This document shows, piece by piece, positions 31,847 through 57,284 of a stretch of 64,000 bases of DNA. The translations under genes were made by a program, and so were the position numbers. Location: positions 1 through 64,000 of the forward strand of contig NW_026971781.1 in assembly GCF_026151205.1 (NCBI RefSeq), in the 5' to 3' direction. Positions within the stretch are counted from its first letter, which is position 1, and every line of letters begins with the position of its first letter. The notes under the pieces were generated by a model, which was not told the origin of the DNA, did no database searches, and worked only from the letters and a program-made list of their open reading frames with translations. Source of the DNA: Bolinopsis microptera. Lineage: Eukaryota; Ctenophora; Tentaculata; Lobata; Bolinopsidae.

Positions 31847-32100
31847 AGGGCGAAATATGGATGTCTCCAAAAAATTCCCATGGATTCCAAAATGTCTCCA
31901 ATTTTTTACAAAATCTTTTCAAGTCATTTTGAATCTTGGGAACCCGGATTTCTGCAACGGATCACACTTGTACTACCTCTATGCAACTCACCCACACCAA
32001 TTTGGGCATGTCCCAGCCAACTAAAGCCGAAAATCTGGCTTTGAAATCTCAAATTTGAAAACACCCGAAAATGCCCCTTTTCGGCCCATTTTTCGGCCCA

Positions 32101-32437
32101 TTTTCCCCCCTGAAGGCCCCAAATAACTGGTAACGTACTTCCAGATCAACCAGGGTGCCAACCAAACTCATTGGAGACGTTTTAGGGCGAAATATGGATG
32201 TCTCCAAAAAATTCCCATGGATTCCAAAATGTCTCCAATTTTTTACAAAATCTTTTCAAGTCATTTTGAATCTTGGGAACCCGGATTTCTGCAACGGATC
32301 ACACTTGTACTACCTCTATGCAACTCACCCACACCAATTTGGGCATGTCCCAGCCAACTAAAGCCGAAAATCTGGCTTTGAAATCTCAAATTTGAAAACA
32401 CCCGAAAATGCCCCTTTTCGGCCCATTTTTCGGCCCA
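32101..32437 (+). repeat. Representative 337-bp unit with dimeric substructure
   Basis: A clean unit. Taking GTAC as the boundary gives half A at 32135-32306 (172 bp) and half B at 32307-32471 (165 bp). Matching blocks run in the same order: GTACTTCC 32135 and GTACTACC 32307; GCGAAATATGG 32187 and GCCGAAAATCTGG 32363; CCAAAATGTCTCC 32224 and CCGAAAATGCCCC 32402; CATTTTGAA 32262 and CATTTTCCC 32436; the block ending GCAAC 32295 and the block ending GTAAC 32471. Smaller internal repeats are the TTTTCGGCCCA doublet at 32078-32100, which straddles this unit's start, and the ATGGAT...GTCTCC pair at 32194-32236. By hand count there are nine CpG per unit. Confidence 0.8.
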
Positions 32438-35400
32438 TTTTCCCCCCTGAAGGCCCCAAATAACTGGTAACGTACTTCCAGATCAACCAGGGTGCCAACC
32501 AAACTCATTGGAGACGTTTTAGGGCGAAATATGGATGTCTCCAAAAAATTCCCATGGATTCCAAAATGTCTCCAATTTTTTACAAAATCTTTTCAAGTCA
32601 TTTTGAATCTTGGGAACCCGGATTTCTGCAACGGATCACACTTGTACTACCTCTATGCAACTCACCCACACCAATTTGGGCATGTCCCAGCCAACTAAAG
32701 CCGAAAATCTGGCTTTGAAATCTCAAATTTGAAAACACCCGAAAATGCCCCTTTTCGGCCCATTTTTCGGCCCATTTTCCCCCCTGAAGGCCCCAAATAA
32801 CTGGTAACGTACTTCCAGATCAACCAGGGTGCCAACCAAACTCATTGGAGACGTTTTAGGGCGAAATATGGATGTCTCCAAAAAATTCCCATGGATTCCA
32901 AAATGTCTCCAATTTTTTACAAAATCTTTTCAAGTCATTTTGAATCTTGGGAACCCGGATTTCTGCAACGGATCACACTTGTACTACCTCTATGCAACTC
33001 ACCCACACCAATTTGGGCATGTCCCAGCCAACTAAAGCCGAAAATCTGGCTTTGAAATCTCAAATTTGAAAACACCCGAAAATGCCCCTTTTCGGCCCAT
33101 TTTTCGGCCCATTTTCCCCCCTGAAGGCCCCAAATAACTGGTAACGTACTTCCAGATCAACCAGGGTGCCAACCAAACTCATTGGAGACGTTTTAGGGCG
33201 AAATATGGATGTCTCCAAAAAATTCCCATGGATTCCAAAATGTCTCCAATTTTTTACAAAATCTTTTCAAGTCATTTTGAATCTTGGGAACCCGGATTTC
33301 TGCAACGGATCACACTTGTACTACCTCTATGCAACTCACCCACACCAATTTGGGCATGTCCCAGCCAACTAAAGCCGAAAATCTGGCTTTGAAATCTCAA
33401 ATTTGAAAACACCCGAAAATGCCCCTTTTCGGCCCATTTTTCGGCCCATTTTCCCCCCTGAAGGCCCCAAATAACTGGTAACGTACTTCCAGATCAACCA
33501 GGGTGCCAACCAAACTCATTGGAGACGTTTTAGGGCGAAATATGGATGTCTCCAAAAAATTCCCATGGATTCCAAAATGTCTCCAATTTTTTACAAAATC
33601 TTTTCAAGTCATTTTGAATCTTGGGAACCCGGATTTCTGCAACGGATCACACTTGTACTACCTCTATGCAACTCACCCACACCAATTTGGGCATGTCCCA
33701 GCCAACTAAAGCCGAAAATCTGGCTTTGAAATCTCAAATTTGAAAACACCCGAAAATGCCCCTTTTCGGCCCATTTTTCGGCCCATTTTCCCCCCTGAAG
33801 GCCCCAAATAACTGGTAACGTACTTCCAGATCAACCAGGGTGCCAACCAAACTCATTGGAGACGTTTTAGGGCGAAATATGGATGTCTCCAAAAAATTCC
33901 CATGGATTCCAAAATGTCTCCAATTTTTTACAAAATCTTTTCAAGTCATTTTGAATCTTGGGAACCCGGATTTCTGCAACGGATCACACTTGTACTACCT
34001 CTATGCAACTCACCCACACCAATTTGGGCATGTCCCAGCCAACTAAAGCCGAAAATCTGGCTTTGAAATCTCAAATTTGAAAACACCCGAAAATGCCCCT
34101 TTTCGGCCCATTTTTCGGCCCATTTTCCCCCCTGAAGGCCCCAAATAACTGGTAACGTACTTCCAGATCAACCAGGGTGCCAACCAAACTCATTGGAGAC
34201 GTTTTAGGGCGAAATATGGATGTCTCCAAAAAATTCCCATGGATTCCAAAATGTCTCCAATTTTTTACAAAATCTTTTCAAGTCATTTTGAATCTTGGGA
34301 ACCCGGATTTCTGCAACGGATCACACTTGTACTACCTCTATGCAACTCACCCACACCAATTTGGGCATGTCCCAGCCAACTAAAGCCGAAAATCTGGCTT
34401 TGAAATCTCAAATTTGAAAACACCCGAAAATGCCCCTTTTCGGCCCATTTTTCGGCCCATTTTCCCCCCTGAAGGCCCCAAATAACTGGTAACGTACTTC
34501 CAGATCAACCAGGGTGCCAACCAAACTCATTGGAGACGTTTTAGGGCGAAATATGGATGTCTCCAAAAAATTCCCATGGATTCCAAAATGTCTCCAATTT
34601 TTTACAAAATCTTTTCAAGTCATTTTGAATCTTGGGAACCCGGATTTCTGCAACGGATCACACTTGTACTACCTCTATGCAACTCACCCACACCAATTTG
34701 GGCATGTCCCAGCCAACTAAAGCCGAAAATCTGGCTTTGAAATCTCAAATTTGAAAACACCCGAAAATGCCCCTTTTCGGCCCATTTTTCGGCCCATTTT
34801 CCCCCCTGAAGGCCCCAAATAACTGGTAACGTACTTCCAGATCAACCAGGGTGCCAACCAAACTCATTGGAGACGTTTTAGGGCGAAATATGGATGTCTC
34901 CAAAAAATTCCCATGGATTCCAAAATGTCTCCAATTTTTTACAAAATCTTTTCAAGTCATTTTGAATCTTGGGAACCCGGATTTCTGCAACGGATCACAC
35001 TTGTACTACCTCTATGCAACTCACCCACACCAATTTGGGCATGTCCCAGCCAACTAAAGCCGAAAATCTGGCTTTGAAATCTCAAATTTGAAAACACCCG
35101 AAAATGCCCCTTTTCGGCCCATTTTTCGGCCCATTTTCCCCCCTGAAGGCCCCAAATAACTGGTAACGTACTTCCAGATCAACCAGGGTGCCAACCAAAC
35201 TCATTGGAGACGTTTTAGGGCGAAATATGGATGTCTCCAAAAAATTCCCATGGATTCCAAAATGTCTCCAATTTTTTACAAAATCTTTTCAAGTCATTTT
35301 GAATCTTGGGAACCCGGATTTCTGCAACGGATCACACTTGTACTACCTCTATGCAACTCACCCACACCAATTTGGGCATGTCCCAGCCAACTAAAGCCGA

Positions 35401-56400: not shown

Positions 56401-56456
56401 ACTTCCAGATCAACCAGGGTGCCAACCAAACTCATTGGAGACGTTTTAGGGCGAAA

Positions 56457-56527
56457 TTTGGATGTCTCCAAAAAATATGGATGTCTCCAAAAAATTCCCA
56501 TGGATTCCAAAATGTCTCCAATTTTTA
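56457..56527 (+). repeat. Variant core copy with a 19-bp tandem duplication
   Basis: The 19-bp segment TTGGATGTCTCCAAAAAAT at 56458-56476 is followed directly by ATGGATGTCTCCAAAAAAT at 56477-56495, with one A-to-T difference at 56458. Slightly downstream, at about 56522-56526, a run of six T is five T. The net change of +18 bp accounts exactly for the 355-bp step. This is the only departure from the clean unit that I found in the 25.4-kb core. Confidence 0.93.
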
Positions 56528-57284
56528 CAAAATCTTTTCAAGTCATTTTGAATCTTGGGAACCCGGATTTCTGCAACGGATCACACTTGTACTACCTCTA
56601 TGCAACTCACCCACACCAATTTGGGCATGTCCCAGCCAACTAAAGCCGAAAATCTGGCTTTGAAATCTCAAATTTGAAAACACCCGAAAATGCCCCTTTT
56701 CGGCCCATTTTTCGGCCCATTTTCCCCCCTGAAGGCCCCAAATAACTGGTAACGTACTTCCAGATCAACCAGGGTGCCAACCAAACTCATTGGAGACGTT
56801 TTAGGGCGAAATATGGATGTCTCCAAAAAATTCCCATGGATTCCAAAATGTCTCCAATTTTTTACAAAATCTTTTCAAGTCATTTTGAATCTTGGGAACC
56901 CGGATTTCTGCAACGGATCACACTTGTACTACCTCTATGCAACTCACCCACACCAATTTGGGCATGTCCCAGCCAACTAAAGCCGAAAATCTGGCTTTGA
57001 AATCTCAAATTTGAAAACACCCGAAAATGCCCCTTTTCGGCCCATTTTTCGGCCCATTTTCCCCCCTGAAGGCCCCAAATAACTGGTAACGTACTTCCAG
57101 ATCAACCAGGGTGCCAACCAAACTCATTGGAGACGTTTTAGGGCGAAATATGGATGTCTCCAAAAAATTCCCATGGATTCCAAAATGTCTCCAATTTTTT
57201 ACAAAATCTTTTCAAGTCATTTTGAATCTTGGGAACCCGGATTTCTGCAACGGATCACACTTGTACTACCTCTATGCAACTCAC

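Follow-up and report, generated by a model that had tools for sequence, protein, structure and literature searches.

In the assembled genome of the ctenophore Bolinopsis microptera (GCF_026151205.1; 264.65 Mb in 232 contigs), the contig NW_026971781.1 (C22; 75,234 bp) contains a tandem array of a 337-bp unit, of which a core of 25.4 kb is written as near-perfect copies of one sequence. We have analysed bases 1–64000 of this contig (the window), and the array raises three questions: what the unit is, whether the identity of its copies is real, and whether their number can be believed. A sequence-only reading of the window had called the array a satellite, and the repeat is indeed tandem and in one orientation in C22; this description missed its origin, however, as the unit appears to be the internal repeat of a foldback-type transposon.

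Chromosomal elements carrying the 337-bp unit

Nine chromosomal arrays of the unit were laid out, and in eight of them a block of minus-oriented units gives way to one of plus-oriented units; C5b, the ninth, has one orientation only, and its left end was not found. Outside the arms lie constant sequences, a left end of approximately 249 bp that starts GATATTATGATTCCTCA and a right end of approximately 260 bp that finishes GAGGAATCATTATATG, and these form a terminal inverted repeat (28 of 32 columns agree between the left end and the reversed right end, with a score of 42 against no more than 28 in 200 shuffles). Exact 8-bp target duplications are present in seven of the nine elements in which both ends are clear (C5a, C8, C3, C1, C6, C9 and the inverted C5c); in C12 seven of the eight bases agree, and in C11a the duplication is absent. 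Eight complete copies span 3.0 to 12.2 kb, the C5a element being 8.8 kb. There are 23 matches to the left end, of which 13 cover the whole query with an identity of at least 93%, and 35 to the right end, and the spacing of paired ends suggests nearly array-less forms, for example at C12:8886.1–8887.0 kb and C7:2457.3–2457.9 kb. Inverted repeat arms, a terminal inverted repeat and a target duplication together place these elements in the structural class of foldback-type DNA transposons, and the 337-bp unit is probably the sequence repeated in tandem inside such a transposon, apparently a non-autonomous one.

The unit also resembles the sub-terminal region of the element (30 matches in a 38-column alignment), with a score of 38 that exceeds by a modest margin the maximum of 34 in 200 shuffles. 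Viewed in isolation, C22 could be taken for an ordinary pericentromeric satellite unrelated to any transposon, since it shows only a tandem repeat in one orientation; however, the chromosomal arrays that match it best lie between transposon ends flanked by target duplications, and the 30 bases in common with the sub-terminal region likewise weigh against this explanation, which we consider very improbable. Nonetheless, what C22 itself offers weighs against its link to a transposon copy: it is an unanchored and damaged contig with neither an intact transposon end nor an inverted junction, and the unit alone links it to the element. Homopolymers apart, it aligns to the unit in a single orientation, with no minus copy of the unit found by BLAST at E 0.001. 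The same search with the ends of C5a gave only one match (40 columns, 77.5%, at 3156–3187 on the minus strand), which corresponds to the unit-like part of the left end, although ends lost in garbled sequence could escape BLAST.

Long arms are seen on contig C76, which passes from unique DNA into a left end, a minus arm of approximately 15 kb and a plus arm of approximately 7 kb, the element occupying positions 5844–29118 (approximately 23 kb as written). The 8 bp preceding the left end, AGCAAAAT, are found again at 29111, immediately after the position that best fits a right end of the C3 type (28800–29107; score 163 against no more than 133 in 10 shuffles). Using the C5a right end as query, however, the best place is elsewhere (32850–33138; 175 against no more than 152), such that this end is weakly placed. 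C76 holds a giant, and probably complete, element written in homopolymer-inflated garble, in which the unit numbers are unreliable.

Two unusual copies were also seen. An element at C5:13224.1–13246.3 kb is split over approximately 21 kb, its ends lying on opposite strands with the same 8-bp duplication, GTCCTGAC; this is either an inversion with a breakpoint inside the arms or a misassembly, and the breaks lie in the arms. A relative at C9:4191.6–4195.1 kb matches the family over roughly 133 bp from the start of the left end, carries a diverged tandem repeat in opposite arms, and directly adjoins the right end of another copy.

A coding partner was sought in several ways. The P-type transposase profile PF21787 had no match, but its control also matched nowhere. 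There are 88 matches to MULE transposase, none of them between paired ends when the lists were compared by eye; one, at C7:10589183, is 2.4 kb beyond a degenerate right end. In locus L037, the stop-to-stop frames closed within it reach at most 94 amino acids. No transposase was linked to the ends, and an 8-bp target duplication is compatible with several superfamilies.

Identity of the core units

Within C22 the identity at a lag of 337 is unbroken from 31843 to 56120, a total of 24,278 positions, so that the repeat is perfect to 56457. The sequence-only reading had noted a step of exactly 337 bp over 72 consecutive starts, and in that frame the 72 units are letter-identical; when units were compared for variants, as it had advised, a single variant unit was found. 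A 28-base string across the internal duplication of this unit is unique within C22 and absent from the other loci compared with it. C22 contains 73 exact copies in total, the last of which starts at 56774, and the figure of about 75 copies, one of them differing, over 31847–57284 is right when the partial units at both edges are counted. Two features had gone unreported: a run of 532 T adjoins the core on its left, and the rest of the window is mostly a damaged form of the same repeat (Table 1).

For comparison we used 153 chromosomally anchored units, defined as full-length matches (unit positions 1–337) in nine arrays, with partial units, C9, C76 and C5c excluded. The identity of the core units is believable because the anchored array C5a (C5:505.6–514.3 kb) has 15 consecutive minus-arm units of exactly the core sequence. 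Units equal to the core unit number 24 of the 153, comprising 21 of the 24 in C5a, three in C12, and none in the other seven arrays; the 153 units together contain 538 substitutions, 99 deleted bases and 46 inserted bases. The earlier suggestion of recent amplification or homogenisation is thus supported by C5a, although not for a run as long as that in C22.

Several observations indeed weigh against accepting the core as written. Even in C5a, full uniformity is confined to the minus arm, and six of the nine plus-arm units match the core unit. In the other arrays, just 15 of 108 pairs of neighbouring units in the same arm are identical. Identity in anchored arrays extends over 15 consecutive units at most, and a run of 72 is far beyond that. 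No variant is present in more than half of the 153 units, and a majority-vote consensus would therefore also yield the core unit.

This last point would fit the possibility that the core is a consensus artefact, in which the assembler or polisher has replaced variable units with the family majority unit, and the true array may be smaller or larger than written, or may not exist. Each of the other eight arrays has C5a as its closest relative (comparing the first eight units of each), which would also fit, as would the visibly poor resolution of C22, which is garbled and contains eight homopolymers with lengths from 62 to 537 bases; C1 has a comparable junction of garble, homopolymer and clean sequence at a different repeat, and C76 is garbled but lacks long homopolymers. 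However, the anchored arrays retain private variants, showing that there has been no global overwriting on the chromosomes, and the 15-unit identical run of C5a lies within an element of 8.8 kb. The proposal that an assembler wrote one consensus unit many times keeps some force, as C22 is unanchored and its core lies between garble and long homopolymers, but the anchored identity is real; we regard such an artefact as unlikely, though it must be taken seriously.

Parts of C22 that look uncorrected provide a further comparison, for which we used 31 common family substitutions at sites picked as variable in the anchored set. Three segments (4001–10000, 12001–17000 and 68470–72545), chosen from five non-core segments examined, have four family variants against 1331 reference bases, with five other mismatches; in the anchored units the same 31 variants account for 367 of 4743. 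These damaged, unpolished-looking segments show no excess of known variants, which counts against the artefact. Positions 58978–59700 similarly have no known variants against 61 reference bases, with two other mismatches, but 61151–64000 is less clear and points the other way, with seven known variants against 233 reference bases and eight other mismatches at the same sites. On the whole, these counts support C22 being a nearly pure array beyond the core, although a majority-vote consensus would give the same letters.

Damaged repeat around the core

The neighbours of the core are damaged text of the 337-bp unit and not old satellite. Although 18501–31314 has the appearance of different DNA, three 1-kb test stretches within it score 115, 477 and 444 in cyclic alignment to the unit, against shuffle means of −286, −297 and −301; the score is 67 for 58201–58880 (shuffle mean −200) and 297 for 60201–61100. 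Reversed, complemented and shuffled controls of the five garbled stretches are all below −170, and unrelated DNA is ruled out in these five, as the alignments lie far above every control. Past the window the damaged repeat goes on likewise to the contig end at 75,234. Over the whole contig, cyclic alignment gives approximately 243 unit passages, a rough figure into which the homopolymers are counted.

Table 1. Features of the window. Identities are from cyclic alignments, in which deleted positions are scored as mismatches.
Feature	Position	Strand	Details	Basis
Damaged 337-bp repeat	1–2526	+	~85% identity	
62-T homopolymer	2527–2588	+		
337-bp repeat	2589–18500	+	Per-kb identity with the core unit about 84–99.5%; more indels than substitutions	
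Garbled 337-bp repeat	18501–31314	+	Not unrelated DNA	Cyclic alignment scores and error spectrum
532-T homopolymer	31315–31846	+	Lies where garbled repeat meets clean repeat; interpreted as an assembly artefact	
Perfect core	31847–56457	+	24,611 bp with no mismatch; 73.03 unit lengths	Lag-337 identity and cyclic alignment
72 consecutive letter-identical full units	32155–56418	+	Starts 32155 to 56082	
Single variant unit	56419–56773	+	355 bp; internal duplication and one deleted T	
Final exact unit	56774–57110	+		
Last clean partial unit	57111–57284	+	Text degrades after it	
Garbled 337-bp repeat	57285–58899	+	26% deletions	
78-A homopolymer	58900–58977	+	Between garbled and cleaner repeat	
337-bp repeat	58978–64000	+	Cleaner stretches, with garbled 60151–61150	

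Sequence identity falls away from the core, and it does so in blocks, which could suggest an age gradient in which the degraded flanks are a real, older satellite surrounding a young core. We reject this on the error spectrum, the flanks being rich in deletions and the family rich in substitutions. Anchored divergence is mainly by substitution, whereas flank segments of C22 have up to 27% deletion: in 18501–31314, 26.9% of positions are deleted, 7.4% substituted and 1.9% inserted, and in 68470–72545 the figures are 13.8% deleted and only 0.5% substituted. Moreover, 181 of 2324 substitutions summed over the C22 segments analysed (7.8%) are known from at least two anchored units, compared with 69 of 1011 possible ones (6.8%), which is about chance when taken as raw counts. 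We give an age gradient almost no credence.

The homopolymers that were inspected sit in or beside garbled stretches. Runs of T are not special to the C22 array, because a stretch of 104 T is no rarity in the assembly, where it matches at 9,996 overlapping positions on the forward strand and at 20,333 on the reverse. We have set aside the reading of the 532-T run as a retrotransposon tail, because the inspected runs adjoin garble and a run of G and then A does likewise at another repeat on C1. That repeat, at C1:14518.3–14519.7 kb, is a case of window-like damage on a chromosome, consisting of a garbled copy, 269 G, 351 A, and a clean copy. In C76 the garble differs in that the text is inflated, where that of C22 has lost bases, and long homopolymers are absent, and at approximately 31.8–32.3 kb the same contig has a tandem repeat of approximately 40 bp that goes from garbled to clean text. 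Literature searches on garbled homopolymer contigs listed nothing directly on point.

The caution of the sequence-only reading over copy number was well placed, as the garbled blocks and homopolymers are hard to explain as biological divergence. Because C22 is unanchored and its consensus is badly resolved, the 73–75 copies and the length of 25.4 kb are not measurements; the core length and copy number cannot be trusted and are not to be used until the reads are checked. There is a more general warning here, in that the homogeneity and copy number of satellites on unplaced contigs can be partly a consensus artefact, and apparently old, divergent satellite flanks can be sequence damage, for which deletion-heavy copies together with homopolymers of hundreds of bases provide a signature.

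Insertion sites and other observations

An orientation-specific target preference is seen in the family, with the right end just before a CGCG motif in most copies examined. GCGCG or CGCGC occurs within 30 bp in eight of nine right flanks, in none of nine left flanks, and in 478 of 60,514 background windows (0.79%). This count excludes C5b, for which no left end was found and which has the motif 12 bases into its right flank, and C76, where the right end is garbled and the motif lies 17 bases downstream of the point at which the duplicated 8 bp start. The right flanks with the motif are at C5:514.3 kb, C8:9939.2 kb, C3:15669.6 kb, C1:5907.2 kb, C6:20386.3 kb, C12:4091.3 kb, C9:5792.5 kb and C5:13224.2 kb, and C11a is the one without it. 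Among 18 related right ends the motif is within 30 bp in seven and not in 11, although three pairs of the 11 have the same flank and are not independent.

Among the places listed, interstitial TTAGGG arrays were noted inside C1 and C2, for example at C1:17115161–17115328. A search for COX1 had no match, its control matching in 8 of 14 genomes.

Origin of the array

As the unit holds a piece of sub-terminal sequence, the repeat probably arose by duplication of the element's own end, and extra copies of it perhaps add transposase binding sites. The arms could then lengthen or shrink through unequal exchange or through copying during repair, which would give a range from copies almost without an array to arms of dozens of units and, in the extreme, a satellite block. 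C22, which would be built almost purely from the unit type also present in C5a, is most likely the interior of a single arm belonging to a young copy of great length, or else a satellite array that has come out of such a copy. We favor this explanation, in which the unit originates as a transposon arm repeat, C22 is a young expanded arm or released array, and the identity of its units is mostly due to real, recent expansion; it seems likely to be correct, but not securely so.

In a bolder version, a foldback family would integrate in fixed orientation directly before a CGCG-type motif, often followed by GAA or AAA, and its arms could jump in a single recent episode from a few units to more than 200 near-identical ones, approximately 75 kb in one direction. 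A mobile element the size of a gene would then turn into a satellite block nearly immediately, for instance if the hairpin-forming arms were repaired by copying of the rolling-circle or repeated-template type. We offer this as a speculation that is decidedly doubtful.

Comparison with known systems

Of the published cases consulted, the closest is Tetris/TIR-220 of Drosophila virilis, and C22 would be another example of a satellite derived from a foldback element. In the portion of the Tetris report available to us, repeats of the foldback arm are argued to become satellite, with arrays of up to 66 copies (PMC4079207). As described there, Tetris is similarly an apparently non-autonomous foldback element having long terminal inverted repeats (TIRs) with internal tandem repeats; its repeat and outer domain have a short stretch in common (37 bp in Tetris), it makes target duplications (8–10 bp, compared with 8 bp here), and its repeats also occur as long homogeneous arrays (PMC4079207). 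The likeness is one of layout; the unit is a different one, of 337 bp rather than about 220 bp, and here there are up to dozens of units per arm inside the element (PMC4079207). The Bolinopsis family thus appears to be another well-laid-out case, beside Tetris, of a transposon's arm repeat turning into satellite, and a single genome presents what may be several of the stages: some copies seem to have almost no array, some carry a few units, some carry about 20–24 and one carries dozens, and there is an unanchored block that amounts to approximately 240 unit passages.

Two other systems are instructive. Galileo, of the P superfamily, likewise has long, internally repetitive TIRs that resemble Foldback elements and in which the number of tandem repeats differs between copies and between the two TIRs, according to the sections of the reports available; it is associated with inversions (PMC3573991, PMC3688188), and its TIR repeats have been demonstrated by others to hold extra transposase binding sites (PMC3688188). 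It differs in having 7-bp duplications and a known transposase, compared with 8 bp and no linked transposase here (PMC3573991, PMC3688188). The Tm1 Mutator/Foldback elements of root-knot nematodes share composite, repetitive TIRs and mostly 9-bp (8–10 bp) duplications, and include members similar to miniature inverted-repeat transposable elements; that report never mentions a satellite, and its authors find no target preference, whereas in the Bolinopsis family a preference for CGCG is seen (PMC3169594).

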